Shown piece after piece: positions 26,963 to 51,370 of a DNA stretch of 64,000 bases (position 1 is its first letter; the number at the start of each line of letters is the position of its first letter). The DNA lies in NCBI GenBank assembly GCA_025963715.1, contig JAOQAG010000017.1, positions 1 to 64,000 of the forward strand, given 5' to 3'. A program made the translations under genes and the position numbers. Origin of the DNA: Bacteroidota bacterium (GTDB lineage Bacteria > Bacteroidota > Bacteroidia > 2-12-FULL-35-15). The notes beneath the pieces are model-generated. The model was given only the letters and a program-made list of their open reading frames with translations. It was not told the origin of the DNA and searched no databases.

Positions 26963-29900
26963 ATGGGAAGGTCAACAGTGCATTATGCTGATAATAAAAC
27001 AAATAACGCTTTAAAAAAGCTTCATAATAAGTTACGTCCGGCAGGTACACCTGTTCAGCGGGTAGAGTATATTATTGAGTTGCTTTTACTTCGCATTTTT
27101 GAAACTAAAATTAAAAAGGACGAAGAGTTTAAACCATTACGTAAACTTTTTTCCGCTGATTATCTTTGGAAAAACCCTAAAACAGGGATAGAGGAAACCA
27201 ATGAAAATCGTTTGTTCTCATATTTACCCAGCGTTAATAGCGAACAAATATTATCGGAATTAAATGATAATTTTTTTCCGTTTTATTCAAACATTTTACA
27301 AAGTTCCAGGAAAGTGTTTGAAGGGAATCTTCCTCAAAAGGTTCAGGATCAGTTGGTTTTAATAGAAGAGGTTTTTAGTAATTCAAATTTTACAAATAAC
27401 GTAAATAGTGGAAATCTAAGTGAGGTAATAAGCATCGTCGCAAACGATATAGAGGAAACCCGCTTATTAAAGACTGATCTATTGGGTGATGCTATCGAAT
27501 CGGCGCTAAGCGAGACAGGTGGAACAAAAGATGTGGGACTATTTAGGACTCCTGACCATATCCGTCAATTTATGACGGCTTTGGTTGAACCTGATTTTGA
27601 GGATACAATTTTTGATCCGGCTTGTGGCACTGGCGGATTTCTATTTGATGCTTTTGAATTTGTAATGCGTAGAGTAGATCTAAATCGACAGTGGCCAGGA
27701 GAAAAGTCAAATAGCGAGTTGGCTGAATGGTTTGATGAGTATTTTGAATCGAATTCAATTGATTTTCCAAGTATTGAACAGACAACCCAATTTTATAGAA
27801 GCGGTGTTTCAGGAATTGAATATTTAGGGATGATTCGCAAAATGGCAGCGATTAATTTTTATGTTAGAGGTTTAAATCCTGCTAATATTGAACAAGGTGA
27901 TTCATTGGCAAAATATAGCCCAATTACTGATAATGAAAGTAAATCCGTAATCCTTGCAAATCCTCCATTTGGCGCTCAACGAGATCAGGAATCATATCCG
28001 GATGTATGGGGTGAATATTCTAAGGAATCAGAAACAACCATCTTGTTTGTAAAACTGATGTTCGAGCAGCTGAAACAAGGCGGGCGCTGTGCTGTAGTTG
28101 TTTCAGAAGGGTTTCATACCTGGGACCAGGGAAGTGCAAAAGCACTGCGAAAAATGTTGTTGGAAGAAGCTCAATTGAAAGCTGTTATTTCGTTGCCGCA
28201 AGGTTTATTTATAAGTAAAAGCGGACAAGGGCCTAAAACTTCAATCCTTCTTTTTGAAAAAGGTGGTAAAACAGACTGGACCTGGTTTTATAAAGTGACC
28301 AATGATGGCTACTCGATGGGAACGAATAGAAAAGAACAAAAGGGGAACCAGCTGGTAGAATGCTTAACGTTCTATCATGCGTATGTAAAGCATGGAATTA
28401 AGCCACCTGCCAGTAAGAATCAATTTTGTATCCCTGCCGAATGGATTAAAACACTCGATCCAAGAATAAAAGAAAAAATACGGGTAGAAACGCGTGCTGA
28501 TATGGAAGTCAAAGGCAAAATTGAAAGAGAAAAAAAGGAAGCGGAACTGGATAGGAAAATAAAAAGTAATAAAGTTACCGCATCCGACAAACAAATGGAA
28601 TTGAAAACATTTGATCAAATGTTAGATAACCGTATTCAAAACGAAATTGCCAAACGTATTGACAAAGCACACAGCTATTCCTTCAATTTAGCAAATTATA
28701 AAAGCACTATTACCGATAGTCAAATTGTAGAATGGGCAGAAGCTTTAAAACACATAGAACCAAATGGGACAAAAACTTTAGAAGATGTGTATAAAAAATT
28801 AAATAATAGTAAACTCGAAAATGTTTTACCGTATCTACTCAAATTAAATCCAATCAATGCTCTTGAAGCTGATATTGCAAGGGAATATATTAATAATTTA
28901 GATAGTGACTTAATTGTAAAGCACAACGAATTAACTGTGATAAAGGAAATTTTGAAAAGTGGGGCAAAATATCCAATGGTTAAATTAAAGGGTTATTTAA
29001 TTTTGAATGAGAATAAAATTAAACCGAATAAAACTCCCGATGTTAATTACAAAGTGCTTGGTGTAAGTAATGAAATAGGCATTTTTTTAAATGAAAAACT
29101 GCAAGCTGAAGAAACTAATCAAAGTTACTTTGTAGTAGCGAAAAACGAATTTTGCTATAACCCATACAGGATAAATGTAGGAAGCATAGCTTTAAATACA
29201 AACGATTATGATAACCAAATAATTAGTGGTGCATACATAGTTTTTGCATGCAAAGAAGATGAACTTAATTCAAAATATTTAGAAACACTTTTTAAAAGCA
29301 AAGGCTTTTTAAATTATGTAAATGACAAAGCAAATGGTGGTGTGAGAATGAACTTTAAATTTGAAGATATGGAAGCGTGGGAAATTCCTTTACCTTCTAT
29401 TGATGAACAAAATATGATTGTTGCTCAAATTGAAAAACAGAGGGCAATTATCGAAGGATCAGATTTGGTTATGAAAAACTGGGATGTTGATGAAAATATT
29501 TATAATGAATTGCCTAAAAAGAAGATGCATGAATTTGCAATTTTAAATCCCTCTAAAGGGAGATATTTTGCATTATCAGACGATTCACTTGTCTCTTTTG
29601 TTCCTATGGCAAACATTGATGATGAATTTGGTAAAAGGAAGGAAAACATTGAAAAACTATATTTGGAAGTAAAAAAAGGATTTACTTATTTTGAAGAGAA
29701 CGACATTTGCTTTGCCAAAATTACTCCTTGCATGGAAAATGGGAAATGTTTTGTAGCGAAGGGTTTAACTAATAGGTTTGGGTTCGGAACTACAGAGTTA
29801 CATGTATTCAGACCTAAAGAAAACTGTTTAGAACCTGATTATTTATTTTATTTTTTGCGTTCAAAAAAATTCCGAAAAGAAGCAGAGATAAAAATGACTG

Positions 29901-30142
29901 GTTCATCGGGGCATAAGAGAGTTCCTGATGATTTTCTTTTGAATTATGATTATCCTGTGCCTGATATTCAGATTCAACGTCAAATAATTGCTGGATTGAA
30001 TGCAAAAAATAAAATACTGGAAGGGTTATTAAAAATGAAAACTGAAGCCCAAAAAAAAATCGATGCAATATTAGCAGATGTTTGGGATGTTGAATTTGTA
30101 GAACCAGTAAAAATGGAGGTAGAAGATGAGCAGGAAAATTAA
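26963..30142 (+). CDS. Fused type I methyltransferase-specificity protein (HsdM-HsdS)
   Basis: Residues 1-150 are helical HsdM_N-like. The methylase domain has DPACGTGG (218-225) and NPPFGA (333-338), both intact. A charged helical linker (about 500-620) leads to two target-recognition domains: the first from about 650 to 850 (YPMVKLKGYLILNENKIKP ... IPLPSIDEQNMIVAQIEKQR), the second from about 870 to 1050 (MHEFAILNPSKGRYFALSDD ... YPVPDIQIQRQIIAGL). This puts modification and both half-site recognitions in one 1059-residue chain, whereas the usual system uses separate subunits. The end overlaps the HsdR gene by 17 bases. Confidence 0.9.
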   Translation: MGRSTVHYADNKTNNALKKLHNKLRPAGTPVQRVEYIIELLLLRIFETKIKKDEEFKPLRKLFSADYLWKNPKTGIEETNENRLFSYLPSVNSEQILSELNDNFFPFYSNILQSSRKVFEGNLPQKVQDQLVLIEEVFSNSNFTNNVNSGNLSEVISIVANDIEETRLLKTDLLGDAIESALSETGGTKDVGLFRTPDHIRQFMTALVEPDFEDTIFDPACGTGGFLFDAFEFVMRRVDLNRQWPGEKSNSELAEWFDEYFESNSIDFPSIEQTTQFYRSGVSGIEYLGMIRKMAAINFYVRGLNPANIEQGDSLAKYSPITDNESKSVILANPPFGAQRDQESYPDVWGEYSKESETTILFVKLMFEQLKQGGRCAVVVSEGFHTWDQGSAKALRKMLLEEAQLKAVISLPQGLFISKSGQGPKTSILLFEKGGKTDWTWFYKVTNDGYSMGTNRKEQKGNQLVECLTFYHAYVKHGIKPPASKNQFCIPAEWIKTLDPRIKEKIRVETRADMEVKGKIEREKKEAELDRKIKSNKVTASDKQMELKTFDQMLDNRIQNEIAKRIDKAHSYSFNLANYKSTITDSQIVEWAEALKHIEPNGTKTLEDVYKKLNNSKLENVLPYLLKLNPINALEADIAREYINNLDSDLIVKHNELTVIKEILKSGAKYPMVKLKGYLILNENKIKPNKTPDVNYKVLGVSNEIGIFLNEKLQAEETNQSYFVVAKNEFCYNPYRINVGSIALNTNDYDNQIISGAYIVFACKEDELNSKYLETLFKSKGFLNYVNDKANGGVRMNFKFEDMEAWEIPLPSIDEQNMIVAQIEKQRAIIEGSDLVMKNWDVDENIYNELPKKKMHEFAILNPSKGRYFALSDDSLVSFVPMANIDDEFGKRKENIEKLYLEVKKGFTYFEENDICFAKITPCMENGKCFVAKGLTNRFGFGTTELHVFRPKENCLEPDYLFYFLRSKKFRKEAEIKMTGSSGHKRVPDDFLLNYDYPVPDIQIQRQIIAGLNAKNKILEGLLKMKTEAQKKIDAILADVWDVEFVEPVKMEVEDEQEN

Positions 30143-32540
30143 TGAAGCTACTTCTACTGATTTGCCAATCATACAACGATTAGTAAACGATTACGGATGG
30201 AAAGTTGGTGATACTTTATTATATCAGCAAACCTACGATATTTCGGAAAGTCTTAGACAAGATTATCCTAATCTTAAAAATATTCGCCCTGATATTGTTT
30301 TGCAGGATTTGAACGGTGAAGTAGTGGCCGTAATTGAAAATAATCTTGATAAAGAAAATAAAGATCTTTTAAAGCTTCGTACTGTAGTTACGCATTTATT
30401 GAAGCCTCGTTTCCTTTACGCATGCAGTGCCGAACGTATTTTGTTTTATGATAATACCTGGAAGGGATTAGAGGCTGGTGAATTTAAGCAGGTAAATGGT
30501 TTTATGACCTTGGAGGAAATGAAGCTCAAAATGGAGCAGCAAAAGAAAATTGCTTCCAACAAGGAAATTATTATTGATACAACCATTGCTGGTGGATTTG
30601 ACCCAACCGTTGGTAAAGAGAGATACTATCAGTTGGATTGTATTCGTACGGTTGTTGAAAATTACAAAGCCGGGAAACAAAAAATGTTGATCCACATGGC
30701 AACAGGCCTTGGTAAAACAAGAACGGCTGTAGCTTTGGTAAAGGCATTGTTATCCGGAGGCTTAACCAAACGTGTTTTATATGTAGTGGATAGAAGGATG
30801 TTAGCGAAACAAGCAATAGACGATGGTTTTGCATTGATAAGCAAAGAACACACGTCTAGTTGGATTACAACGGCTAATTTTAAAGCAAGAAAACATGCAA
30901 GTATTCATGTTGTAGTTATCGACACATTAGAACTCATTCACAGTGATTTGCCTTCAAACTTTTATGATTTAATTATTGTTGATGAATGCCATAGAAGCAT
31001 TAACGTAAATAGGAAACTTATCTTCGATCATTTTCTTTGTCCACGGGTTGGTTTAACAGCTACGCCAAGGATTGCTGTTCCAAAAGAAGGTGCTGAAGTT
31101 GCGGAAGAAGATCTGGAGATAATTGATACGTATAAATTGTTTGGTTGTGAAACAGGTGAGCCAGACTTTGCATTTGACATGGAAAGAGGGATTGATGAAG
31201 GATTTCTGGCTCCATATAAACCAATTGAATTAAAATCATCTTTAATCTCAGAGGCAGAGGAAAATGGAATTGAGTTTGACTATGTGCTGGATCCACAGGA
31301 AAAATATCAAATTGCTTTAGGTGGTGAAAAAAAACTTAAGTTAGAGCAACTCAACAGGAAATTTATCTCAAAAGAAAATTGTTTACGTATTGCAGAAGAA
31401 ATTAAAAAAAATACGCAATATGGAGAGAAAGTAATATTGTTCGGTGTTAGCCAGGCACATTGCATTGAATTGGCAAAAGCAATAAATAAAGTTTTTGAAA
31501 ATGATAATGCAGATAAACCATATTATGCGGAAGCTATAATTTCAGAAAATAATGAGCTAAATGAAACACTTAAAGCGTGGTTCAAAAAGCCGTATCAAAA
31601 GCCGTATGTTGTTACATCTGTAGATATTTTAAGTACAGGAGTGGACATTCCTTGTGTTCGTTATATTGCATTTGCAGCATTAACAAAGTCTGCTGGTAAA
31701 TATATCCAGATGGTTGGCAGGGGGACCCGTTTGGATCCTAAAACAGGTAAATTTAGTTTTACTATTCTCGATTTTGTTGGTTTGTGTAAGAGGATGGAAG
31801 ATAATGGAAAGGGAACGCTAAAAGAAAACAAAAAGGTTGTAAAGCCCGCGGCTTTAAAACCTAAAATGGAAGCATTGCTCAGGCCAAAAGGCGATTATTT
31901 TCTAATTGATAATCCTGACCCTGCCCATTTAATTCAAAGAGTAGTAATTCATGGTGATACTATAAATGTAATAGATAATCTTCCGATTGAAGAAGCAAAA
32001 AAGATTTTTGAAGATGAGTTGAAAAAATCGCAAGAGCCGGTTATCGTCGCTTTGAAAGAAAAAGCAGAACAAAAAGATTACCAGCCATCCGATGATGAAA
32101 TTGAAAAATTAATTGATTGGTTGAGTAAACCTAATACATTTTTGGATGAGGGGCATTTACAAAAAATGTATAACTATCCGGAAGGTTCAGTCTGGGATTT
32201 TTTATTGCATGCTTTAGGTAAAAAGAAAATTCCTACAGCTAAAGAGCGTATAGAGAAAAATTATCTTTCATATATACATACCTATAACTTTACTGATGAA
32301 CAGATTGTAATTTTAAAAAAGATAAAAAATGTTTTTGTTTCAAATGTTGAGTCTAAAAAATCGATTTCCGAAAAAGATATTTTCGGAAATCCCATTTATG
32401 AAAGGCTTATTGGTTCATATGAATCTGTAAGTGAAAAATTTAATGGGCGATTTAGTAGTGTCATGAATGAATTGAAAAATAATTTTATTTTTTTTATTCC
32501 TCCCCCAAAACCAATTCCGCCAACTGGTAATATAAAATGA
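30126..32540 (+). CDS. hsdR: Type I restriction helicase/endonuclease subunit of the second system
   Basis: Residues about 1-140 form an HsdR nuclease-like region with IRPDIVLQDLNGEVVAVIENN; the usual (D/E)xK lysine is not obvious there (ENN), so cleavage activity is uncertain. The motor is complete: MATGLGKT (191-198), DECH (286-289), GLTATPR, and QMVGRGTRLDP in the second lobe. At 804 aa it is the shorter HsdR type. The C-terminal ~150 residues resemble the EcoEI-type tail. Its start lies within the end of the HsdM-HsdS gene, and its stop overlaps the membrane-protein gene by 4 bases. Confidence 0.87.
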   Translation: MSRKINEATSTDLPIIQRLVNDYGWKVGDTLLYQQTYDISESLRQDYPNLKNIRPDIVLQDLNGEVVAVIENNLDKENKDLLKLRTVVTHLLKPRFLYACSAERILFYDNTWKGLEAGEFKQVNGFMTLEEMKLKMEQQKKIASNKEIIIDTTIAGGFDPTVGKERYYQLDCIRTVVENYKAGKQKMLIHMATGLGKTRTAVALVKALLSGGLTKRVLYVVDRRMLAKQAIDDGFALISKEHTSSWITTANFKARKHASIHVVVIDTLELIHSDLPSNFYDLIIVDECHRSINVNRKLIFDHFLCPRVGLTATPRIAVPKEGAEVAEEDLEIIDTYKLFGCETGEPDFAFDMERGIDEGFLAPYKPIELKSSLISEAEENGIEFDYVLDPQEKYQIALGGEKKLKLEQLNRKFISKENCLRIAEEIKKNTQYGEKVILFGVSQAHCIELAKAINKVFENDNADKPYYAEAIISENNELNETLKAWFKKPYQKPYVVTSVDILSTGVDIPCVRYIAFAALTKSAGKYIQMVGRGTRLDPKTGKFSFTILDFVGLCKRMEDNGKGTLKENKKVVKPAALKPKMEALLRPKGDYFLIDNPDPAHLIQRVVIHGDTINVIDNLPIEEAKKIFEDELKKSQEPVIVALKEKAEQKDYQPSDDEIEKLIDWLSKPNTFLDEGHLQKMYNYPEGSVWDFLLHALGKKKIPTAKERIEKNYLSYIHTYNFTDEQIVILKKIKNVFVSNVESKKSISEKDIFGNPIYERLIGSYESVSEKFNGRFSSVMNELKNNFIFFIPPPKPIPPTGNIK

Positions 32541-32995
32541 ATAATAAATTAAAAGCCGGAAATCAAATGGAACCTAAAGAAGATATTCAGGATAAAATCA
32601 CAGAAAAATATCTTGAACAATTATATAAAATATATGATTCCAGCATTGTTACATTAGATAAAAATATCTTGTACATTTCTTCAAGTGCTTTAGGGCTTTC
32701 ATTAACTTTTCTGAAAAATATAATAGATACCTCTAGTATTAAATGTTTTTTTATTTTGTCCGTTTCCTGGGTACTTCTGACGCTCTCAATATTGCTTAGC
32801 TTATTGTTACATAAAAATTCCATCAAGCTAATTAATTATTTAATTGTAAATGTATATCAGCAAAAAGAGGGGGAAGATTTGAATGCAAAAAAAATGCGAA
32901 AAAATGCTGAACTATTAAATGCTGTCGCTATCTGGTTCTTAATCACAGGGATATTATTATTAGTTGTATTTGTTTTAATAAATTTGAAAAAATAG
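32537..32995 (+). CDS. Small membrane protein linked to the second type I system
   Basis: No family is assigned. The 152 residues have three hydrophobic segments (about 45-62, 70-92 and 128-150) with a polar helical N-terminus (ITEKYLEQLYKIYDSSIVTLDKN) and a short loop between helices two and three. The layout resembles SLATT-type or other membrane effectors found with defence genes, but no signature proves it. The 4-base overlap with hsdR shows that it belongs to that operon. A membrane-perturbing effector and a simple anchor are both possible. Confidence 0.6.
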   Translation: MNNKLKAGNQMEPKEDIQDKITEKYLEQLYKIYDSSIVTLDKNILYISSSALGLSLTFLKNIIDTSSIKCFFILSVSWVLLTLSILLSLLLHKNSIKLINYLIVNVYQQKEGEDLNAKKMRKNAELLNAVAIWFLITGILLLVVFVLINLKK

Positions 32996-33203: not shown

Positions 33204-35981
33204 ATGATGAAACTCCATGAAACCATAGAGAGGATACTCTTAGAAGCAGGTAAACCACTTTCTGTTAAAAAAATTGCTCAACAAGTTAATAAATCCGGTT
33301 GGTATAAACGTAAGGATGAAAAGGAGGTTGAGAGTAGTCAAATCGGCGCGAGGGTCAGACAATATAATAATCTGTTACAGAATATAAACGGATACATATT
33401 TCTGACATCGGATCATTACTGGAAAGATATTTTAACCAGTTACTGGTCTGTAGCTGGCATATTAAGAGGTATTCTTTCTATTTCCGAATTGCAATTTGTT
33501 ATAGCTTGTGTCTTTTATTTTAAAAGAATAAAAGACCTCGCAAAACATAATGCCGATTATGCTAAGCGGTTTCGGATCATTCAGCACATGTATCTTGCCT
33601 CATCCAAAAACAGAAACATTCCTGGGTCGGAAAAAATAACATTTAATGATGTAATTGCCGAGTATTTAAGAATATATCCCAATACGAACCGGGAAAAAGA
33701 AATTGAGATCAATCTAATAATAAGTAAGTTAGATACTACGGAATATAATGAAGATGAATTCGGTAATATGTTCGAATATTTATTGAACCTGACTTCCCTT
33801 GATAGTAATAAATCCCCTGTTGCGTATACCCCAAAATCAATTCTTGAGCTGATGACCGGTTTATTAAAACCGGATAAGCACAAGAATATATATGACCCTG
33901 TTAGCGGTACAGGAGGATTGCTTGCCGAAGCACAATATGCTACGGGAGGAACATTGCATTCAAAAGCGCATGAAATTAATCATAGAGTGGCACTTTTAAA
34001 CCTGATGAACCAGGAAATGCACGGTTATTTTAATACTCAGATTTATGCTAAAAATTGTTTTGAGGATCTAAACAATCACGAGACATTTGATTATATAATT
34101 GGAGATTTGCCTATCGACGGGGTGGCAAATTATAATGAATATTATAGCCTTTTTAAACAATGGAAAATCAGCGCACCTTCATCCGGGAAAGGATTTAGCG
34201 CTATTCTTTTATACATCTTGTCGAAGCTTGGCCCCGGGGGGAAAGCTGTCATTACAGTATCTGAGAGTTTTTTATTTAAGAAAGGAAAAGAACTGGAAAT
34301 AAGAAAAATTCTGGTTGAGCAGGACATTGTTGAATCGGTTGTAGGCTTACCATATGGAGCTTTAAGGCCTAATACAGAGGCAAAGGCAGCCATACTTGTT
34401 CTTAACCGGAATAAAAAGTTAAAAGGGAAAATAAAATTTATCCGCGCTCATGAAACCAGCTCGGATAAACAAGGTGTTGATCTGAATACAGAAGAAATAC
34501 TTCAAATGTATATGGATCCGGCAGATGAGAAGAGCAATGTGCAGATTGTTGATAGTTTTGACCTTTTGAAGGATTACAATCTCTCGGCTTATGTATATGA
34601 TGCAGCGTTTGAGCTCAACAAACAAATGCGGAAAGAAGGCGGCGCAAAATTATTGGGTGATTTGGTAGAGATTCGATCGGGTATTAATATTGATAAAAAA
34701 GATCAGGTAGCAGATGGCGATGTACCTTTTATTAAGATTGAAAATTTATCACCGGATGTTTTAAGCATTTATCTGACAGAAGAACAAATCACTTCAAGGA
34801 TTCATTTACCTGATAAATTTTACAAGGATTTGATTCATCAGGAATGCATTCTTGTTGCCAGGATCGGAGATCACTTAAAGCCAACTTATTTTAAACCTTC
34901 AGAAAAAATAAGGACAATAGTAGCACATGGTGGCGTTCATACGCTTATTCCTAAAAAAAATGCGATTGATCTGGAATATCTCTATTACCAGTTAAATTCA
35001 GAATATATAAAGGAACAATTAAACCGGATTAAGCTGGGCGCCGTTATGCCTTATATGAGTATATCAGGCTTAAAACAAATACTGATCCCTTACGTTGAGC
35101 CGAAATCTCAATTGGAATTTGTAAAAACTCAAAAAGCAAATATAATAGCATCAGAAAGAGCAAAAATAGAAGATAAAATTAAGCTTTTGGGTTATAAGGA
35201 AGAGCGTGTTCAGATAGAAAGTGATATTGTGAGAACGTTGGTCCATCAACTAAGGCCTACGTTGCTAAATATAGATCTGGAAGTAAAAAAAATCAAACGT
35301 ATTGTAGATAATAATGATCTTTTAGACTTTAAGGAAGGAAATGATATTGGAAATACAGAAAAGGACCCACAGGTTGCTTCTTTGATAACGCCTCCTGTGG
35401 ATTATAGCTTATCAGAAATAATTCAAAAATTACAGCACGATACACTACAATTGAACCATGTGCTAACAACGGTTAACACAGTAATGAGCTTTAAACTTAC
35501 TCCCGGTGATATGGAAGAGGTAGATCTTATTAAGTTTTTTAAAGAGTATATGAAAATCAAAAAGATCGAAACCACCGGTAGTTTTGAAATTGAAGTAAAC
35601 GGCGAACATTTTTTTGCAAGTATTAATAAGCCTGCATTCAGAGATCTGATTGATCAGATATTTGTGAATATAAGGCTTCATGCTTTTAAGGGTGTTGTTG
35701 GAATTAAAAAAAGAGTTCAATTTATAATCAGGCAAAACAAAGAAAGAGGAATTGCAATAATAGAATACCAGAATAATGGCAAACCTTTTTTACTTACGCA
35801 GAAAGACTTTACTGACCCCTTTGTAAAAAGTCAGACAAGCACAGGTTCTGGCATTGGTGGTAATTATATATACCGGATTGTACAAGCTCATAATGGAGAA
35901 ATAACAGTCAAAGAAGAATTAAGATGGGGATTTGCCTTGACAATTGAAATGCCTTTAAATCAACAACTTAAAAATGAATAA
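33204..35981 (+). CDS. HARE-HTH / N6-methylase-like / TRD / histidine kinase fusion
   Basis: Four modules are visible in 925 residues. (1) A HARE-HTH winged helix, 1-70 (LHETIERILLEAGKPLSVKKI). (2) An N6-adenine methylase fold, about 100-460: motif I is DPVSGTGG (231-238), but the NPPF position reads DLPI (301-304), so methylation is doubtful. (3) One HsdS-type target-recognition domain, about 480-660 (LLGDLVEIRSGINID ... ISGLKQILIPYVEPKSQ). (4) A kinase-type C-terminus, about 670-925: phosphoacceptor-like H681 in LVHQLRPTLLNI, N-box N822, NNGKPF (857-862), DPFVKSQTS (871-879) and GSGIGG (881-886). The following gene is a receiver protein (8-base overlap), which supports a phosphorelay controlled by DNA binding. 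I know of no described system with this architecture. Confidence 0.85.
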   Translation: MMKLHETIERILLEAGKPLSVKKIAQQVNKSGWYKRKDEKEVESSQIGARVRQYNNLLQNINGYIFLTSDHYWKDILTSYWSVAGILRGILSISELQFVIACVFYFKRIKDLAKHNADYAKRFRIIQHMYLASSKNRNIPGSEKITFNDVIAEYLRIYPNTNREKEIEINLIISKLDTTEYNEDEFGNMFEYLLNLTSLDSNKSPVAYTPKSILELMTGLLKPDKHKNIYDPVSGTGGLLAEAQYATGGTLHSKAHEINHRVALLNLMNQEMHGYFNTQIYAKNCFEDLNNHETFDYIIGDLPIDGVANYNEYYSLFKQWKISAPSSGKGFSAILLYILSKLGPGGKAVITVSESFLFKKGKELEIRKILVEQDIVESVVGLPYGALRPNTEAKAAILVLNRNKKLKGKIKFIRAHETSSDKQGVDLNTEEILQMYMDPADEKSNVQIVDSFDLLKDYNLSAYVYDAAFELNKQMRKEGGAKLLGDLVEIRSGINIDKKDQVADGDVPFIKIENLSPDVLSIYLTEEQITSRIHLPDKFYKDLIHQECILVARIGDHLKPTYFKPSEKIRTIVAHGGVHTLIPKKNAIDLEYLYYQLNSEYIKEQLNRIKLGAVMPYMSISGLKQILIPYVEPKSQLEFVKTQKANIIASERAKIEDKIKLLGYKEERVQIESDIVRTLVHQLRPTLLNIDLEVKKIKRIVDNNDLLDFKEGNDIGNTEKDPQVASLITPPVDYSLSEIIQKLQHDTLQLNHVLTTVNTVMSFKLTPGDMEEVDLIKFFKEYMKIKKIETTGSFEIEVNGEHFFASINKPAFRDLIDQIFVNIRLHAFKGVVGIKKRVQFIIRQNKERGIAIIEYQNNGKPFLLTQKDFTDPFVKSQTSTGSGIGGNYIYRIVQAHNGEITVKEELRWGFALTIEMPLNQQLKNE

Positions 35982-36849
35982 TATTATACTTATTGATGAT
36001 AGAGAAGATTTTGTAATCCAGTTTGTGGAGTACGCCAAATCTAAAAATATGTCTATTGCTCACAAAAAAAGTTTTAGTGGGCTAAAGGAGATACTACCCT
36101 TACATCATCACAATTTTGCTGCAGTAATATTGGATATTAGGTGTTTGCTTGTAAATGAACAGGAAAAAGAAGATGCTGATTTTATAACTGTGGCATTAAG
36201 CTACCTTGATAGAACGATTCCTTTATTTCCCCGTTTTATTTTAACCGGTGATGATAAAGAGTTTGAAACGATAGGAAGATACTTTAAACAAGAGAAGGTT
36301 TTTAAGAAAACCCCGGAAGATTTAGAGAAGCTGTTTGTTGATTTAAAAAACTGTGCAGATAATTCAGAGCCTTTGCGCATTAAAAGAGAAAATGCTCAAG
36401 TGTTTGAATTATTTACGTTGGGCAAAATGGCTGCAACAGCTGAAGAACAGCTTTTAGCTCTTTTGAAAGATGGGCTTACAGAAAAAAGAATAAGTGAGTT
36501 CAGGGGAATACTCACGAACGTGAGAAGCTTACAGGAAATAATGTATAAATGTATTCATAACAGAGCTCCATTGGTTGTGCCTTCTCACGTATTTAAACCA
36601 AATGGAATGATAGAATTTAATAAATTAATGGCGCATTTGAATGGGAACCCTGATCGTAACAGGGGACATGTTACAACAACAACCGTCTATCAGGTGCAAC
36701 CTATATATAATCTTGCTAATTCATTGTACTGGGTTTGTAGTGAATATGTACATGGAACTGCTTCAAGAGACTATCAGATCAGCGATTATACCATAAAATC
36801 ATTAATTAATAATCTAATGGAATTACTTCTTTGGTCAAAACAATTTTAA
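35974..36849 (+). CDS. Receiver-domain protein with all-helical output region
   Basis: Residues 1-125 form a CheY-type receiver: D8 and D9 in IILIDDRED, phosphoacceptor D54 in VILDIR, T91 in ILTGDD and K111 in VFKKTP are all present, so phosphorylation should work. Residues 130-291 are helical with no DNA-binding motif that I recognise. The segment LANSLYWVCSEYVHGT resembles the conserved Y..S..xH helix seen in some HEPN-like proteins, but the R-x4-6-H RNase motif is absent. It starts inside the end of the kinase fusion gene, so the two are almost certainly partners. The output may act by protein binding rather than transcription. Confidence 0.8.
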   Translation: MNNIILIDDREDFVIQFVEYAKSKNMSIAHKKSFSGLKEILPLHHHNFAAVILDIRCLLVNEQEKEDADFITVALSYLDRTIPLFPRFILTGDDKEFETIGRYFKQEKVFKKTPEDLEKLFVDLKNCADNSEPLRIKRENAQVFELFTLGKMAATAEEQLLALLKDGLTEKRISEFRGILTNVRSLQEIMYKCIHNRAPLVVPSHVFKPNGMIEFNKLMAHLNGNPDRNRGHVTTTTVYQVQPIYNLANSLYWVCSEYVHGTASRDYQISDYTIKSLINNLMELLLWSKQF

Positions 36850-36870
36850 CCCTTACGTGATATAATAAAT

Positions 36871-37530
36871 ATGGAAAATAGTAATGATACGGGAATTGTA
36901 TATCTATTAATTAACCCTGTAATGCCCGGGCTGGTTAAAATTGGCTCTACCTATAGGGATGATACAAAATTCCGGATGAATGAATTGTATTCAACAGGAG
37001 TTCCATTACCTTTTGAGTGTATATATGCTGCCAAAGTAAAGAATCCGGAAAAAGTAGAGGGAGCGCTCCATACCGCGTTTGCTCCTGACCGGATTAATGC
37101 ACGAAGAGAATTTTTTGAAATAGAGGCTACACAGGCAATAGCGATACTAAAATTACTGGAGATCGAAGACTCCACAATGCAGATTGAAAAGGAAGTGGAA
37201 ATGGTGGATTCTGTTTCTTTGGAAGCAGGAAAGGAGTATTCCAAAAAACGGCCTAAATTTAATTTTATTGAAATGGGAATTCCCATAGGTAGTGAGATTG
37301 TGTGTACTAAAAATGGAGAAACAGCCATTATAGATTCGGATCATACAATTTTCTATAAAGGGGAAAGTATAAGTCTTACAAGTGCAACAAGGTCAATATT
37401 AGGTTATGCTTATAACGTAGCTCCCGGGCCTTACTGGACATTTAATGCCCGCCCGGTTTTACGTGATATAAAGAATCGAATAGCCGTTTTATTTCAGCAG
37501 GAGTATATCTGCTTAATAGGCGTTCTTTAA
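36871..37530 (+). CDS. GIY-YIG/T5orf172-type nuclease with RAMA-like C-terminal domain
   Basis: Residues 7-100 match the T5orf172 branch of GIY-YIG nucleases: GIVYLL (8-13), GLVKIG (20-25), RMNELYSTGVPLPFE with R35, KVEGALH with E63 and H67, and RREFFE. Residues about 128-205 resemble a RAMA domain (IPIGSEIVCTKNGETAIID, then SLTSATRSILG and GPYWTF), a putative reader of modified DNA found with methylases and nucleases. Together they suggest cleavage guided by modification state. It follows the receiver gene by 21 bases. The final ~20 codons run antisense to a remnant gene and may be a recombination-derived tail. Confidence 0.8.
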   Translation: MENSNDTGIVYLLINPVMPGLVKIGSTYRDDTKFRMNELYSTGVPLPFECIYAAKVKNPEKVEGALHTAFAPDRINARREFFEIEATQAIAILKLLEIEDSTMQIEKEVEMVDSVSLEAGKEYSKKRPKFNFIEMGIPIGSEIVCTKNGETAIIDSDHTIFYKGESISLTSATRSILGYAYNVAPGPYWTFNARPVLRDIKNRIAVLFQQEYICLIGVL

Positions 37531-37843: not shown

Positions 37844-38890
37844 TTATTGTTGCTGTTTTTGTTTTAATGTACTAGATAGAGTATGAAAAAAATTAACCGT
37901 TTGTCTTAATAATTCTAATCCTTGTGGGGTAATACCATCCGGGTCGAAATGCATAACGTCATTTCTTATTTTTCTTACTTCCTCTAGCTGCTTGATAATG
38001 ACAATTCTATCAATTTTCAACTTCAATTTTTCGAATTTTTCTGGATTCTCTATGATTTTTATATATTCTCCAAATGTTAAATCAGATAAATTTTTTATCT
38101 CTCTGCTCTTGTCGCTAGGGTCAATTGATTTTCGTAATTCATCAAGAGTAAATTTGCCATCAAGCATCCTCCGAATATGATTTTCAATTTGCTCAATTAT
38201 AAGAAAGGGTTCAGCAAGAGAAATAAATTGCTCGCCAATATCAGTTGAAGTTACAATGCCACTTATTGTTTTGTCCTTTTGACGAACTAGTACTACTTCT
38301 TTATCAAGAACAAATTTTACTGCATTAAAGAGAGGTTCATCGTAATTTAATATTACAACTTCATCTTTACAATCGTTCACTGTGAGACATCCTTTGCCAA
38401 GAGAAAGAGCTCGCCCGATTGATTTCCAGCTAATAATACCGTCAACATCTCTTATTCCTGATAAAATTGGTAATTGTGAATAGTCGTGCATTAGCATGAG
38501 AGTGATTGCTTCGCTAAGCTTTGTTTCTTTTTTTACGGTCAACAGTCCAGTTCCTTGATGATTTTCTCTAATAGTCCCAATATTTGCTGCCTTAAGTAAA
38601 CTTAGTCTTGGTGTAGGGTCAAGTTCTTCTTGCTCGTTCATCGTTTTGTTCGCAGATAATTTGGGCTTGGGCTTTATTTCAATTGATGAATAAAGCCAGG
38701 CATTTGAAAAATTTGGCTCAGAAAAAACTTCATATTGATCAAATAATTTATTAACCCTTTCAATAACTCTCCAACCTCTCCGAGATACATTGAGATAATC
38801 TAATGCCACGTGTGGAGATGTAGTCATAGATTTTTGATTTTTTTGTACTTCAGCCAATATCCCTTCAAAACTCAAATTAGTAGATTCCAT
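37844..38890 (-). CDS. CBS-pair protein with HEPN-like C-terminal domain
   Basis: Residues about 118-165 (TVKKETKLSEAITLMLMHDYSQLPIL) and 172-222 (NYDEPLFNAVKFVLDKEVVLV ... GIVTSTDIG) form a CBS pair, which usually binds adenine nucleotides. The C-terminal ~120 residues are helical and end with RNDVMH (309-314), matching the R-x4-H catalytic motif of HEPN RNases, with the polar residue after Arg that active members have. The N-terminal 60 residues are helical, of unknown role. The combination suggests a nucleotide-sensing RNase or toxin. A remnant gene follows 12 bases downstream. Confidence 0.7.
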   Translation of the reverse strand: MESTNLSFEGILAEVQKNQKSMTTSPHVALDYLNVSRRGWRVIERVNKLFDQYEVFSEPNFSNAWLYSSIEIKPKPKLSANKTMNEQEELDPTPRLSLLKAANIGTIRENHQGTGLLTVKKETKLSEAITLMLMHDYSQLPILSGIRDVDGIISWKSIGRALSLGKGCLTVNDCKDEVVILNYDEPLFNAVKFVLDKEVVLVRQKDKTISGIVTSTDIGEQFISLAEPFLIIEQIENHIRRMLDGKFTLDELRKSIDPSDKSREIKNLSDLTFGEYIKIIENPEKFEKLKLKIDRIVIIKQLEEVRKIRNDVMHFDPDGITPQGLELLRQTVNFFHTLSSTLKQKQQQ

Positions 38891-40498: not shown

Positions 40499-41218
40499 TT
40501 GGAATTCAATAATTTGATATTAAATATATTAAATTCAAAAGAAAAAGTTTCTAAAAAAGAAATTGTAGAGATAATTCATAAACAATTTCCAGATATGCCA
40601 GATTCTACAATTAGCTGGCGTTTGCATCAAATGAAATCCCAAGAGCTAATTCAAAGTCTTAGTTACGGGAGCTATTCACTAAAATCTATAAATCATTTTA
40701 GCCCCAATGTATCTAGTTCTTTAAAGAGGATTTATAATCGCGTAAATAAAGAATTTCCATACATACAAATATGCGTTTGGGATAGTAGGTGGTTTAATGA
40801 GTTCATGCTTCACCAAATGTTTCGCTTTTATCTTGTAATTGAAGTTGAAAAAGATGCTGCCGAATCTGTTTTTAATTCCTTAACTGATTTTAGTAAAAAA
40901 GTTTTTTTAAATCCAGATGACGATATTTTTAATCGTTATATCTCGAATTTTAATGAAGTAATAATTGTGAAGTCATTAATTTCAGAAGCTCCGATAGCTG
41001 AACAAGAAGGAATTAAGATAGCCTCATTGGAGAAACTTCTCATTGATTCTCTTTCGGATAAAGGGCTATTTGCAGCCCAGCAAAATGAACTCGAGTTTAT
41101 ATATAAATCTGTATTTAATAAATACAATTTAAACATAAGTAAGATGAAGCGGTATGCTAAACGGAGAAATCAATTTGATAAATTAAAAATGTTATTAAAT
41201 AATAGCACTACAAAATAG
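40499..41218 (+). CDS. AbiEi-like antitoxin / transcriptional regulator (DUF6577 type)
   Basis: Residues 1-65 make a winged helix-turn-helix (KEIVEIIHKQFPDMPDSTIS, then WRLHQMKSQELIQ) and the rest has the AbiEi-type fold, including SLEKLLIDSLSDKGLF. The frame opens at a TTG at 40499; the first in-frame ATG is at codon 32, inside the DNA-binding domain, so TTG is preferred. It should neutralise the nucleotidyltransferase toxin encoded 3 bases downstream and repress their promoter through the palindromes upstream. Confidence 0.78.
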   Translation: MEFNNLILNILNSKEKVSKKEIVEIIHKQFPDMPDSTISWRLHQMKSQELIQSLSYGSYSLKSINHFSPNVSSSLKRIYNRVNKEFPYIQICVWDSRWFNEFMLHQMFRFYLVIEVEKDAAESVFNSLTDFSKKVFLNPDDDIFNRYISNFNEVIIVKSLISEAPIAEQEGIKIASLEKLLIDSLSDKGLFAAQQNELEFIYKSVFNKYNLNISKMKRYAKRRNQFDKLKMLLNNSTTK

Positions 41219-41221
41219 AAG

Positions 41222-42277
41222 ATGATATCGTTAGAAACATACTCTTTAGATTGGATAAAATCAATTAAAACGAAGCTTGGTAAAAAGATAGATGCTAAAA
41301 TGCTTGAAAAAGTAATTTACGCTCTTTCTCTCCTAGAGCAGTTGAAATTAAATGAACTCGATTTGATATTCAAAGGTGGAACCTGCTTATTGCTAACATC
41401 AAAAAAGCCATTAAGATTCTCTATTGATATAGATATTATTACACAAGAAAATGAAGAGAAGATAGAAAAGGTTCTTCATAAAATTATTGAAACAGGCATC
41501 TTTACAAAGTGGGAACCTGATAATGATCGTAAAACTGTTTCCAATGCCCCAATTAAGCATTACAAGTTCTATTATGGAAGCAAAGTAGATGATAGTTTTG
41601 GAGAAGAACCAATTTTACTGGATGTAATGATTTGCCCTTCTCCATATCCGGTTATTACGGACCAGGCTGTAGAACATGATTGGATAGACCAATCAGGGGA
41701 TCCTATAACTATAAAAATACCTGTTTATGAATGTATTCTCGGAGACAAATTAACCGCGTTTGCCCCAAAAACAACAGGAATTCTTTATAGTAAAGAGAGA
41801 CCTGTTGAAATTATAAAGCAATTGCATGATATAGGTTTTTTGTTTGATTTATCAAAAGACATAAACCTAGTGAAGCAAAGTTATTTGCGTGTAGTAAAAG
41901 AAGAATTAGGTTACAGAAGTTTGAATATTTCATACATAGAAGTATTGCATGATACCTTTGATGCGTGCGTTGCAATCGCTTCGAGAGATGAAAATAATGT
42001 GGATTATTTACACTTACAAAAAGGAATAAATAACATTACCAATTTTATAATTAATCGTTTTAAAATAGAAGAAGCTATAACTGCCGCTGGCAAAGTTGCC
42101 TACTTGTGCGGGTTATTGATGCAAGAAGAAATTAAAGAGCCTGAAAGGTTTAAATCTCCTGACCAAATTAAGGAAACAGCAATTACACATAAAGATTATC
42201 AATGGTTGAATAAACAGAAAAAATTAAATCCCGAAGCTTTTTTCTATTGGGAAAAGGCAATAGCATTAAAATCTTAA
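41222..42277 (+). CDS. AbiEii-type nucleotidyltransferase toxin
   Basis: The DNA polymerase beta-like nucleotidyltransferase signature is present: KGGT (51-54) with D69 and D71 in FSIDIDII. ECILGDKLTAF, with the conserved Lys, follows further on. The length of 351 aa fits the AbiEii/AbiGii family. Related toxins transfer nucleotides to tRNA or other targets and halt growth. It forms a type IV-like toxin-antitoxin pair with the preceding gene. Only 6 bases separate it from the next gene, a DNA methylase, so toxin and methylase are on one transcript. Confidence 0.85.
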   Translation: MISLETYSLDWIKSIKTKLGKKIDAKMLEKVIYALSLLEQLKLNELDLIFKGGTCLLLTSKKPLRFSIDIDIITQENEEKIEKVLHKIIETGIFTKWEPDNDRKTVSNAPIKHYKFYYGSKVDDSFGEEPILLDVMICPSPYPVITDQAVEHDWIDQSGDPITIKIPVYECILGDKLTAFAPKTTGILYSKERPVEIIKQLHDIGFLFDLSKDINLVKQSYLRVVKEELGYRSLNISYIEVLHDTFDACVAIASRDENNVDYLHLQKGINNITNFIINRFKIEEAITAAGKVAYLCGLLMQEEIKEPERFKSPDQIKETAITHKDYQWLNKQKKLNPEAFFYWEKAIALKS

Positions 42278-42283: not shown

Positions 42284-44365
42284 ATGGCAAAGAAAAAAAC
42301 AGAGAACCCAGTAGAAAATACAGAGGAAGTTGTATTAGATGATAATCAGCTTATTTGCCTACTCACAGGCGATATAAAAGCAGCTAAACCAAAAGAAGAA
42401 AACCTTCAATCTGTTATTCGTATGTTAAATGAAGAGTATGGCTTTGATCTTCCAAATATGCAAAGGGATTTTTCTATAACAGGTTTTGATGCTGAAACAG
42501 GTAGAGCAAAAAAGCAAAAAATAGATCTGGTTGTTTTTGAAAATAAAAAGAATCATGAGCAGGAGAATATTATTAGAATGTGCATTGTATATGATGAGAA
42601 GATAAAAGAAACAGATAAAAAAAATGGACTTGAAGTAACTTTGCAGAATGCATTGAATACATTAGATAATTGTGAATTCGGATTATGGTCAAATGGCGAT
42701 CAATATCATTTTCTGCATAAAACTCAAGATGATTTTAATAATATTGAATATGAAGACTTATCGGATTTCCCTGGAGAAGGGCAGACTTTGGAAGATTTAG
42801 ATAGATCAGATAAAAGTATTGCAAGAAAGCCGGCAAATGATTCATTAATAAGAGTTTTTAAAAGATGCCATGATTATATTTATGGTAATGAAGGTATGAA
42901 AAAAACTGCCTTTTGGGAATTACTCAATTTGATTTTTTGTAAGATTTATGATGAAAAGCGGAGATTTATTGCACTTGAAACCGGAGATAGTTATCGTAGA
43001 GAATTTTGGGTAGGCGTAAAGGAGCAGAACACACCGGATGGAAGAGCGAAAGTAGCAAAACGTATAAAAGGTATTTTTAATAAATTGAAAAATGACACTT
43101 TGTTTTCAGAAGTGTTTGATGGTAACGAACAAATAAATCTTACGGATAAGGGATTAGCTTACATAGCAGGTGAGTTAGCTAAATATTCATTTTTGGATGC
43201 TACAGTTGATGTTAAGGGGGTGGCTTATGAGACAATCGTTTCTAATACACTAAAGCAGGAAGCTGGACAGTTTTTTACACCACGTAATATTGTAAAGTGT
43301 ATGGTGGAAATGCTTGATCCTGATGAAAATCAGCGTGTATTAGATCCCGCTTGCGGCTCAGGAGGCTTTTTAGTAATGGTTTTGGATCACGTGCGTAGAA
43401 AAATTGCAAAAAAACTATTTCCCGATCTTTCTGGACCTTGGCTACAAGACAAAATGAATACGGTAAAAGTGAATAAGTTAGTAAAAGAATATGCAGAACA
43501 ATATCTATTTGGTTTTGATTTTGATCCTGATTTAAAAAAAGCTGCTCGTATGAACATGGTAATGGCAGGTGATGGACACGCAAGCATATTTCATGTAAAC
43601 TCGCTGGCATACCCCAAAGGGGATAATCCAGAAATATTAAAAAAAATAAAAGAAACTCTTAACAATAGTGTAAAGAAAAGCTCGGATAAGAAATTTCCAT
43701 TCGAATATGACGATGCTCGCGGAAAATTCGATCTTATTTTTACAAATCCTCCTTTTGGCGCTAAAATACCGGTAAATGATCCTGAGATTCTTAAACAATT
43801 TGATTTAGGGCATAATTGGAAAAAGAATGCTAATGGCGAATGGGATCGCTTTGCATTGAGCACAAGTGAGCCTCCTGAAATACTTTTTATTGATCAATGC
43901 TATCAATTACTAAAGCCAAGTGGCAAGATGGCTATAGTATTACCTGATGGGATTTTAGGAAATCCTAATACTGAGTATGTAAGAGCTTGGATTTTAAACA
44001 AATTTAAAGTGCTTGCTTCTATTGATTTGCCTGTAGAAGCTTTTTTGCCTCAAGTGGGAGTGCAAGCATCGTTACTGTTTTTGCAAAAAAAGACAGATAA
44101 AGAAAGATTAATAAAAAGTGAAAGTTATGACGTGTTTATGGCAGTGGCAGAGATGTTAGGAAAAGACAGAAGGGGAAATCAGGTATTTGAAAGAGATGAA
44201 GATGGAGCAGAGTTATTATTTGATGATGAAATTGAATACATTGTTGTAAATCATACTGGTAAGAAAGAACTGAGGAAAAGGAAAGAAAAGACTAGACACT
44301 TAGATGATGATCTTCCTAAAATAGCAGAAGCGTATCAAGTTTTTTTGAGAGGAGGTAAAATATGA
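42284..44365 (+). CDS. N6-adenine DNA methyltransferase of the MADS-like operon
   Basis: DPACGSGG (354-361) and NPPF (488-491) are intact, so activity is expected. GQFFTPRNIVKCMVEMLDP precedes motif I, as in HsdM. The N-terminal ~330 residues are an added region that starts like an HsdR nuclease-type domain (IDLVVFENKKNHEQENIIRM), where the E-x-K is ENK. The 693 residues thus exceed a plain HsdM. It is the first gene after AbiE and overlaps the specificity gene by 4 bases. It probably marks host DNA for self recognition. Confidence 0.85.
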   Translation: MAKKKTENPVENTEEVVLDDNQLICLLTGDIKAAKPKEENLQSVIRMLNEEYGFDLPNMQRDFSITGFDAETGRAKKQKIDLVVFENKKNHEQENIIRMCIVYDEKIKETDKKNGLEVTLQNALNTLDNCEFGLWSNGDQYHFLHKTQDDFNNIEYEDLSDFPGEGQTLEDLDRSDKSIARKPANDSLIRVFKRCHDYIYGNEGMKKTAFWELLNLIFCKIYDEKRRFIALETGDSYRREFWVGVKEQNTPDGRAKVAKRIKGIFNKLKNDTLFSEVFDGNEQINLTDKGLAYIAGELAKYSFLDATVDVKGVAYETIVSNTLKQEAGQFFTPRNIVKCMVEMLDPDENQRVLDPACGSGGFLVMVLDHVRRKIAKKLFPDLSGPWLQDKMNTVKVNKLVKEYAEQYLFGFDFDPDLKKAARMNMVMAGDGHASIFHVNSLAYPKGDNPEILKKIKETLNNSVKKSSDKKFPFEYDDARGKFDLIFTNPPFGAKIPVNDPEILKQFDLGHNWKKNANGEWDRFALSTSEPPEILFIDQCYQLLKPSGKMAIVLPDGILGNPNTEYVRAWILNKFKVLASIDLPVEAFLPQVGVQASLLFLQKKTDKERLIKSESYDVFMAVAEMLGKDRRGNQVFERDEDGAELLFDDEIEYIVVNHTGKKELRKRKEKTRHLDDDLPKIAEAYQVFLRGGKI

Positions 44366-45726
44366 AGTTGTTAAAAATTAAAAATAAATGGTTTGAGGAA
44401 AGTGATCTTCGTATGGATGCGGAATTCCATTTGAGTGATGGTCCTAATACTTTACGTCTTCTTAAAAAAAGTGCTATAGAAAAGAATCCATTAACAAAAG
44501 TTTGTTTGGAGATATTTAAGGGGCAGATATTCAAACGTTGTTATGTGTATTCAAAAGCAAAAGGTTTTCCTTTCCTTACAGCATCGGACATGATAAAATT
44601 AAATATACATTCCGGTACTTTTTTATCAAAAAAATACACCTTACAGTACAATCAACTTAAATTGGAGGCAGGGTGGATTCTGGTTTCAAGGTCAGGTACC
44701 TTGGGTATCACGACTTATACTAATAAAAATTTTGAAGGGATATTAGGAACAGACGATCTTATTAGAATTAAACCGAATTCCCAGAATATCAGATCTGGGT
44801 ACCTATATGCATATTTAGCATCTAAATATGGGCATTCCCTTTTAACTCAGTCAAGTTATGGAGGAGTTGTTAAACATATTGAACCACATCATATTGAAAA
44901 TCTCCCAGTTCCTCGATTAGCTCCGTTACAAGAAAAGACGATATCTGATTTAATAGAAGAATCTTCATTAAAAAGGGCGAAATCGACAGAAAAAATGACA
45001 AATGCTGTTGAAATTTTAGAAGAGATTATAGGACCCTCTTCTGTTAATTTAAAATACCAAGTTAAAATGTTAAAAAGTTCAGATATTATAAATTCTACAA
45101 AGCGATTGGATGCTTTGTGTGTAATTTCAAATAAAAAATTAAGAAAAGAACAATCGAAGGCAATTAATTGGGACGAGATTTATAGTTATTCGAAAAATAT
45201 ATTTGTTGGAAATAGAGGAAAGAGGATGTATGTTAATAATGGAATTCCTTTTCTGTCATCATCAGACATGCTATTGTTTAATGCAAAAAAATATTCAAAA
45301 AAAATAAGTAAAAACACTCCAGGTTTGGAAAATATGATCGTTCAAACAAATGATATTTTGATTTCACGATCAGGTACAGTTGGTAAAAGTATTTTAATAG
45401 GAGATGAATTAAATGGTGCTGCAATTTCTGAACATGCAATTAGGCTTGTAATTGATAAAAATAAAATTGCTCCAGAGTATGTATTTTGTTTTCTTAACAC
45501 TCACCGAGGGAAAATGGCTTTAGAAACAAATGCATTCGGCTCTGTTATTATTACATTAAATGAAGATATAGTGGGAAATGTTATGCTGCCTGAAATTGAT
45601 AAAAAAGATCAAAATAAAATAATAACTCTTATAAAGGAATATTTAAAATGTTTGGATTATGCAATTGTTTTAGAAAACAAAGCAGTTGATATGATAGAAA
45701 AAGAAATTGAATCATGGCAGAAATAA
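44362..45726 (+). CDS. HsdS-like specificity subunit of the MADS-like operon
   Basis: Two target-recognition halves are present: about 45-200 (FKGQIFKRCYVYSKAKGFPF ... HIENLPVPRLAPLQEKTISD) and about 265-430 (YSKNIFVGNRGKRMYVNNGI ... VGNVMLPEIDKKDQNKIITL). Each is followed by a helix. Repeated SRSGTLG and SRSGTVGKS motifs mark equivalent positions of the two halves. It would direct the preceding methylase to a bipartite site. It overlaps both neighbours, by 4 bases on the left and 13 on the right. Confidence 0.85.
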   Translation: MKLLKIKNKWFEESDLRMDAEFHLSDGPNTLRLLKKSAIEKNPLTKVCLEIFKGQIFKRCYVYSKAKGFPFLTASDMIKLNIHSGTFLSKKYTLQYNQLKLEAGWILVSRSGTLGITTYTNKNFEGILGTDDLIRIKPNSQNIRSGYLYAYLASKYGHSLLTQSSYGGVVKHIEPHHIENLPVPRLAPLQEKTISDLIEESSLKRAKSTEKMTNAVEILEEIIGPSSVNLKYQVKMLKSSDIINSTKRLDALCVISNKKLRKEQSKAINWDEIYSYSKNIFVGNRGKRMYVNNGIPFLSSSDMLLFNAKKYSKKISKNTPGLENMIVQTNDILISRSGTVGKSILIGDELNGAAISEHAIRLVIDKNKIAPEYVFCFLNTHRGKMALETNAFGSVIITLNEDIVGNVMLPEIDKKDQNKIITLIKEYLKCLDYAIVLENKAVDMIEKEIESWQK

Positions 45727-48700: not shown

Positions 48701-49811
48701 ATGTTTTATTCGCTACAATGTTGAAACATTTAATGATTCAGCCGCGGGAGACGAAATTATTAATCGTTTGGAATGGCTATTAAGAACTGCTGCACTTAAA
48801 CGAGAACTCCACATCACTATTCGTGACTTAAGATCTTTTATTTCATTTATATTGACAAGAAATTATCATTGTAATGAAATTCTAGATTTATATGAAAATT
48901 TAGAAAATGATCCAATAGAATGGTGGAAACTTCATTTTTTCAATATCACAGATGCTTCCGCTAATGATTTAGGTAATCAGGATAGACTTATAAATTTATT
49001 ACGCGAAACAGATATAGCTTCTGTATCGGCTCCAACACTTGATAGAGATTTGTTTTTTGGAGCTCATAAAAAGACAATGTTTTTGGAATACAATGAAAGA
49101 AACTTCTCTTTATTAGATGAGTTTAATGCTTGTAAAGTTTATACCCCTTCACATGAACAAACCGAAGAATCACAAGCACAAGTATTAGAAATGCATAAGG
49201 TTTTCAGAAGACATCAATTTTTTGAAGGAAAGATAAGTTTTGAAGCGCGATTACCTTATAGGTCAGTCGCTACATTTTATGAAAAACTTACTTCCGATTC
49301 GAAACCCAAAGAAGAGCAAAACCAATTATTAAATTCAACGCTTTTAAATGTTTCAAAAGCTATATCATTAAATGAAGGTTGTGATAAACCGGAAATTTAT
49401 AATAAGCATTTAGTATTATCATCGTCTCATGTAAATGATCCTTTTAGTAAATCTTTTAGGTTATTTCCATTAAGTGATTTTGAGCTTGTGATTAGTAAGA
49501 ATACTCATTTAGTCGATTATTTGGAGTATGAACCCGATAGTTTATTGTTTAGAAATAAATCTGATAATAAAGTAACACTCTCTATCTCTTTAGATTTATA
49601 TGAAATGTTAGATTTTATTGGCAAAGGGTATAGCCCATCTTTAAACGATTTAAGAGGTAAATTTATTGAATTGCAAATTTTCAAAAACCTTCTTGAAAAC
49701 CAACCTTATAACAAGGTGGTGGTTACTCGTGATAACCGTGAGTTTTATATGGTTCAGCTTAATACACAAAGAGCATTAGAAGTGTCGCCTTTACATTTGA
49801 CAGAATTATAA
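45714..49811 (+). CDS. NERD nuclease-like / tandem Ser-Thr kinase / P-loop ATPase (PglW-like)
   Basis: The 1365 residues hold, in order: a NERD domain (about 12-125; E19, D57, and E70-N-K72 in the PD-(D/E)xK arrangement); a first kinase-like domain (about 198-465) with HRD (329-331) but a degenerate glycine loop and NFG in place of DFG (348-350); a second kinase domain (about 495-755) with GSGGYS (505-510), K528, HRD (618-620) and DFN (638-640); and a P-loop ATPase (GNAGDGKT, 832-839) with a downstream Cys cluster CTDCPAASKC. The first kinase is probably a pseudokinase and the second probably active. NERD-kinase proteins occur in Pgl and MADS-type defences. The PP2C gene downstream is the likely counter-enzyme. 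Confidence 0.85.
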   Translation: MAEIKHCGKYQSPVNAGEERLLEFLKVNLPDNFYILPGIEIANLNPRNNQVQYLEYDCLVITPHAVYNIENKDYAGRLEGDDDFWYHKEKEMRNPHKTVRFKTSVLNSKLKTIDPSWSRVWIQSIVTLSHPLQNLSGLFGNHTKATFKLDENLIDAIKNPYNVGKMKEDIQDIYLKVTNEICGTAQQRKPEQRKEIEGYEILEVLDQEKNYTEYLVKPKGVTSAVRKRIKEYALDMPSLPEDKRQKREKQIKNQYTALHKIKTNPFILNVQFILDEQNHQFFLEITDYLDENSLRAELKRKTFTFEEKLHIIDNIITALKAAHEVGIFHRDISPENIFLTGGYACLGNFGKSYFSDHQEEGYTVQATLTEQTATAYHAMELIQKEASRASDIYSLGVLAYELFVGKLPFISPFELNRLGGKLPESILPSKINPALPVWIDSFCNHCIRTSPEDRWNDLKELEAFLEKHSHTEIIQQEIVPVSSDKEHSFEIGSRILDYTIYGKLGSGGYSQVYRVKHSLRSNTIYALKVFNESVHASSVIDEYEALKDIQHPNIVKFAWNGTLPSGQFFTLMEFLDGENLKDYAKGEKRLPIHRVFQVAKDILSALLAMQDKEPSLFHRDIKPQNIVFDKGERFVLIDFNVASALENNKEHVGTHPYLAPDLVADNYKVNWNKSADPFALGVTLYELACKAYPWNGSIKIPLSDKDPVHPCDVNPNLSRSFGDFIYKSIRTTYDQRFKDAKEMLQALENIGEFNIIEPEKVNVESVDLSVTEENFVSYINSLFSQSRHGNAGTRASIKVNVYDELTYTPTKLDSRLTPDILDGRYKLVIITGNAGDGKTAFIKKIETKAGNKESLEHHNGAKFSIKGTTFISNYDGSQDEEERANDQVLSEFFLPFEGLASYNNASEGRIIAINEGRLVEFLKTSGKFDDLANIIEEYFYKGGKINLPEGLLIINLNLRSVVASEVDSISLFKKQIKKLTEKPLWEKCTDCPAASKCFIRYNVETFNDSAAGDEIINRLEWLLRTAALKRELHITIRDLRSFISFILTRNYHCNEILDLYENLENDPIEWWKLHFFNITDASANDLGNQDRLINLLRETDIASVSAPTLDRDLFFGAHKKTMFLEYNERNFSLLDEFNACKVYTPSHEQTEESQAQVLEMHKVFRRHQFFEGKISFEARLPYRSVATFYEKLTSDSKPKEEQNQLLNSTLLNVSKAISLNEGCDKPEIYNKHLVLSSSHVNDPFSKSFRLFPLSDFELVISKNTHLVDYLEYEPDSLLFRNKSDNKVTLSISLDLYEMLDFIGKGYSPSLNDLRGKFIELQIFKNLLENQPYNKVVVTRDNREFYMVQLNTQRALEVSPLHLTEL

Positions 49812-49812
49812 T

Positions 49813-51363: not shown

Positions 51364-51370
51364 TTAGACT

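Follow-up and report, generated by a model that had tools for sequence, protein, structure and literature searches.

Restriction enzymes are usually viewed as lone actors on DNA. Two-component signaling is a feature of the anti-phage system Detocs, which combines a TPR-kinase sensor, a receiver and a phosphorylase-type effector. The nearest published relative of the locus described here is the HEF_HK (PF19191) and Response_reg_2 (PF19192) pair of Bellieny-Rabelo et al. 2021, in which a kinase-like gene stands beside a gene for a divergent receiver and the two are linked to restriction-modification genes, to which they are proposed to signal (PMC8011034). The HEF_HK sensor is of the paraMORC type (HATPase_c_3), usually N-terminal, and its context is mainly type II restriction with C5-methylases (PMC8011034).

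Here, we analyze a gene pair in a 64,000-nucleotide stretch of a Bacteroidota genome (contig JAOQAG010000017.1, the window in what follows). Like the HEF_HK pair, it joins a cytoplasmic kinase, an adjacent receiver and a link to restriction-modification, but its sensor consists of a degenerate HsdM and an HsdS domain, and its context is type I. Neither the HEF_HK domain nor HATPase_c_3 is matched in the sensor by Pfam, which finds N6_Mtase and Methylase_S there instead, and PF19192 is absent both from the window's receiver, P0002, at E values up to 1 and from 22 family members at E values up to 0.01. Aligned with hhalign, the profile of P0002-type receivers reaches only 13.8% probability against Response_reg_2, over 69 columns; the kinase cores reach 81% against HEF_HK in profile comparison, a level to be expected for any pair of histidine kinases. 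We therefore reject membership in the HEF_HK/Response_reg_2 family on the negative receiver comparison. The likeness to Detocs lies in the histidine kinase and receiver; unlike that system, these genes show no TPR in Pfam and no match to a phosphorylase-type effector. Residues 71-625 of the sensor share the fold of type I HsdM/HsdS, from which it differs in having a single recognition domain, a lost motif IV, a fused kinase and no diversification. The PADLOC candidate PDC-S57 is a single gene that matches a GIY-YIG neighbor of the pair and lies outside the kinase-receiver module. In the literature searched, mostly without subscription papers, we found no description of a methylase-recognition-kinase fusion, in keeping with the original prediction that a specificity domain wired to a two-component relay would be new.

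A sensor with methylase, recognition and kinase domains

The genes discussed below, and the parts of the sensor, are as follows.

26963..32540, + strand: upstream type I genes, HsdR and an HsdM-HsdS fusion; probably part of the functional setting of the pair
32537..32995, + strand: small hydrophobic protein, predicted membrane protein; overlaps the HsdR stop and ends 208 bases before the sensor gene
33204..35981, + strand: sensor fusion P0001, 925 aa (Pfam, NCBIfam, AlphaFold2, Foldseek, 22-member alignment); N-terminal HTH at residues 1-70, helical region at 71-180
33750..34604, + strand: P0001 residues 183-467, degenerate HsdM-type methylase fold
34653..35078, + strand: P0001 residues 484-625, single HsdS-type target-recognition domain
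35100..35978, + strand: P0001 residues 633-925, histidine-kinase core; DHp with a long helix (633-703) bearing H681 and a second helix (736-761), then a CA/HATPase domain (771-917)
35974..36849, + strand: response regulator P0002, 291 aa; receiver (residues 1-130) and helical output domain (131-291)
36871..37530, + strand: T5orf172/GIY-YIG protein, gene 3, 219 aa (Pfam, PADLOC)

The three rightward open reading frames, 33204-35981, 35974-36849 and 36871-37530, lie within the span originally given, and the first two do overlap by exactly 8 bases. The predicted N6-methylase fold and single HsdS-type domain of P0001 are borne out by Pfam matches to N6_Mtase (residues 183-467, E 1e-37) and Methylase_S (residues 484-659, E 1.5e-8), and HATPase_c follows at residues 816-919 (E 2e-4). 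An N-terminal HARE-HTH, also predicted, does appear at residues 2-41, but as a weak match under the cut-off (E 2e-4). The AlphaFold2 model (pLDDT 82.6) finds its best Foldseek matches over residues 71-625 in the HsdM-type enzymes 7eew, PacII and 3lkd; the helical region 71-180 is the most variable part of the sensor.

The methylase domain looks catalytically dead, a prediction from sequence motifs: P0001 has SAM motif I (DPVSGTGG), and at catalytic motif IV, where EcoR124 HsdM has NPPY, it aligns DLPI in place of NPP(F/Y). Active type I N6-adenine methyltransferases combine motif I with (N/D/S)PP(Y/F/W) at motif IV, and our motif comparison finds no family member with both intact. DLP(I/L/M/S/F) occupies motif IV in all 13 members of the window's clade; members of the other clade show erosion of motif I as well as motif IV, with motif IV broken in most, and the sole member with a canonical NPPW has no motif I. 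We reject an active methylase on this loss of motif IV. An active orphan methyltransferase regulated or anchored by its kinase domain, in effect a common modification gene carrying an unusual tail, would account for the strong N6_Mtase match and the intact motif I of the window protein, but the state of motif IV across both clades makes this reading highly improbable. The window protein, like several close relatives, has kept motif I and so may still bind SAM.

The recognition domain, in turn, does not behave like that of a true specificity subunit. For eight of the closer pairs of relatives compared, identity in the recognition domain and in the methylase is 65/67, 43/47, 93/93, 64/59, 51/44, 41/41, 49/50 and 52/45%, while real HsdS and HsdM from type I systems of the same loci give 35/57, 35/56, 36/71, 27/51 and 29/37%. 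The sensor's recognition domain is conserved like its methylase and the rest of the protein, whereas real HsdS falls to 27-36% against 37-71% for HsdM; HsdS-like diversification between relatives is not seen in the sensor. This stability suggests that the cue read by the sensor is probably a constant one and speaks against a changing target sequence, which weakens the original view that a specific, variable one is read.

C-terminal to these domains, the predicted kinase core is upheld by several profiles. Residues 771-923 match AtoS (E 8e-10) and residues 769-920 match EnvZ (E 6e-6) in NCBIfam, placing kinase-profile matches within residues 670-925, and a kinase-region profile from three close relatives matches the solved kinase HK853 (E 1e-7). 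H681, N822, H826, G859, G883 and G885 of the sensor are invariant in 22 homologs, and profiles and invariant residues together identify a histidine kinase with a phosphorylatable His and an ATP-binding domain. Next to H681 the window protein has Q, a position that is acidic in just 6 of 22, and the G1-box Asp of the ATP site is not conserved, with N857 in its place; because of these two substitutions, the kinase could have little or no activity. The modeled helix bearing H681 (633-703) is continuous and starts close behind the recognition domain, which suggests a possible route from a binding event to the kinase.

The receiver and its output domain

P0002 contains the residues of a complete receiver, as had been predicted (there with K111 as the Lys): an acidic pair (D8, D9), the phosphoacceptor D54, T91 and K112. 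Across 22 aligned receivers, D9, D54 and K112 never vary, and the T91 position is always T or S. The receiver model (pLDDT 89) matches solved receiver domains in Foldseek with probability 1.00 and TM 0.7-0.77. Pfam gives no convincing match on P0002 itself; over 22 receivers it finds SLFN_AlbA_2 in four and, weakly, Response_reg in one.

The second gene had been read as lacking a DNA-binding output. This has to be qualified, as a conserved C-terminal helical domain of unassigned type spans about residues 131-291 and is swapped for SLFN_AlbA_2 in four homologs. R184, E188 and H260 in this tail are nearly invariant in a 13-member alignment. The tail of the window protein has no Pfam match as a fragment and no sequence match in the PDB, and whole-model Foldseek matches are dominated by the receiver domain; its HEPN/DUF4145-like look is only an impression.

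These features raise the possibility that the receiver is itself the effector, its C-terminal or AlbA_2 domain acting on nucleic acid when phosphorylated and causing abortive infection independently of neighboring genes. The SLFN_AlbA_2 fusions, the conserved tail residues and the loci with no recognized effector next door speak for this reading, but the helical tail matches no known toxin or nuclease fold, and the tight operons with hsdM described below argue that the receiver acts on the restriction enzyme. We regard a receiver-effector as unlikely.

Conserved pairing and defense neighborhoods

A receiver search of the sampled phylum returned 12 genomes, the window's own included, and a receiver profile search returned 13 genomes (about 3%), with scores clearly separated, 239 bits on one side of the break and 34 bits on the other. 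The kinase region, used as query against species genomes, led to 12 loci, which include Longitalea arenae (the closest), Pedobacter, Flavobacterium, Zunongwangia, a Pseudomonas and an Oxalobacteraceae MAG. After duplicate removal, the family comprises 23 loci including the window, the 22 others mainly from Bacteroidota with two from Proteobacteria; the closest, L077, is 65% identical, and a distant member lies on a Myroides plasmid (L024). Wide presence in Proteobacteria is rejected, as the one hit among 399 sampled is the seed itself. The kinase region was not found in viral contigs, and phage and plasmid records gave no match to the receiver, although the distant plasmid member exists.

Fusion and receiver are adjacent on one strand in all 23 loci, with spacing from an 11-base overlap to a 7-base gap, and the linkage is recovered from either starting point, the receiver search or the kinase-region search. 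Pfam over 22 fusions finds N6_Mtase in 21, HATPase_c in 18, Methylase_S in 11 and HARE-HTH in 6. Pairwise distances of kinases and receivers are correlated (Spearman 0.81), a value matched in none of 2000 permutations. Comparison across the family thus gives good support to the fusion-receiver pair as a real conserved signaling module, in both architecture and pairing. The original prediction of a DNA-recognition-like protein fused to a histidine kinase, with a receiver as its partner, is supported here, in the company of restriction genes: neither a lack of kinase-profile matches nor a failure of homologs to co-occur with the receiver gene, each of which would have refuted it, is seen.

The neighbors of the pair are varied. 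Type I restriction genes occur in 13 of the 23 loci, and in seven (L024, L041, L042, L044, L045, L047 and L076) hsdM directly follows the receiver, at a spacing from overlap to 71 bases. A WYL-like gene (compare the one annotated upstream in L024) precedes the sensor in many type I-linked loci. McrBC is found in L039 and L085; the SLFN_AlbA_2-fused receivers are those of L039, L085, L086 and L087, with McrBC directly downstream in two of these four. AAA_15 and UvrD are present in L043, and type III CRISPR in L040, where no methylase is matched in the sensor; in that locus (L040:1-14400) the methylase-less kinase-receiver pair sits between RAMP genes and Csx1_CARF/Cas6, followed by repeats. In 7 of the 23 loci the stretch examined, on contigs that are in some cases short, holds no recognized defense neighbor, and within the window's own clade type I restriction is less tightly linked to the pair.

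The window's own pair is part of a dense defense island, flanked by the upstream type I system on one side and by the PDC-S57 gene on the other. A second type I system lies at 14665-21480 (hsdM of 819 aa, hsdS, hsdR), close kin of those that follow the receiver in L041 and L042. Also in the island is a 348-aa protein with two CBS domains (37844-38890, - strand). The window further contains AbiEi/AbiEii, a toxin-antitoxin pair that PADLOC matches strongly (40499-42277), a MADS-like or PglW-like cluster (42284-57434; PADLOC mad2, mad5, mad6, which also matches PglW, and mad7, followed by a gene of 1790 aa) and an RdrA-like protein (59952-62645; PADLOC E 2e-29).

The third gene was originally cast as part of the system, as a GIY-YIG nuclease with a RAMA-like reader. 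It is a GIY-YIG protein by its T5orf172 Pfam match, and residues 2-204, nearly its full length, match PDC-S57 (E 2e-67), which places it in that PADLOC candidate family. The RAMA-like reader is not borne out, with no Pfam match to the C-terminal fragment at E values up to 10 and none in NCBIfam. A three-gene defense system with this nuclease as dedicated effector would fit its start 21 bases past gene 2 on the same strand and its status as a defense candidate; the other 22 loci, closest relative included, have no GIY-YIG homolog, and five other genomes carry one with no kinase or receiver beside it. We reject a dedicated effector on this co-occurrence and consider the three-gene system very unlikely. 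Since the gene is absent from the other loci and its homologs stand without kinase or receiver, we regard it as a neighbor independent of the module.

A possible phosphorelay to restriction and other defenses

We propose, with a probability of roughly 55%, that the pair is a cytoplasmic two-component module whose sensor kinase is built from a degenerate HsdM and half an HsdS, and that this module is attached to restriction and other defense systems. Read from gene context, control of defense by the pair is the likeliest reading. The dead methylase and recognition domain would bind a constant cue, which may be a DNA feature, SAM or a ligand related to the restriction enzyme; binding would move the long helix and alter autophosphorylation at H681, from which phosphate would pass to the receiver at D54. 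Once phosphorylated, the receiver would use its output domain to switch a nearby defense effector by protein contact, most often a type I restriction enzyme. Against this proposal, defense islands bring unrelated genes together, and sequence comparison gives the output domain no known relative.

What the sensor detects could be narrower. The dead methylase and recognition domain may act as a decoy that mimics the type I core, detecting DNA-imitating proteins of the Ocr/ArdA type or loss of SAM and triggering a back-up through the receiver. A dead methylase with kept fold, a non-diversifying recognition domain and type I company all fit such a guard, as does the SAM-site motif I kept in the window protein and several close relatives; the CRISPR-linked L040 has no methylase match, however, and McrBC-linked members would face other inhibitors. 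We consider a guard of this kind rather improbable. A more general form of it is also unlikely: a dead M-S half-enzyme with a kinase would sense SAM depletion, inhibitors that mimic DNA or some constant feature of foreign DNA, and its phosphorelay would activate restriction or other effectors, as a front-end coupled to type I, McrBC and type III CRISPR systems alike.

If our proposed two-component module is real, restriction and related defenses would be switchable by phosphorelay, through a pair built from a retired methylase inside the type I operons of several Bacteroidota. Such a sensing system would comprise two genes, one His and one Asp, and would show how an enzyme can be converted to the role of receptor.
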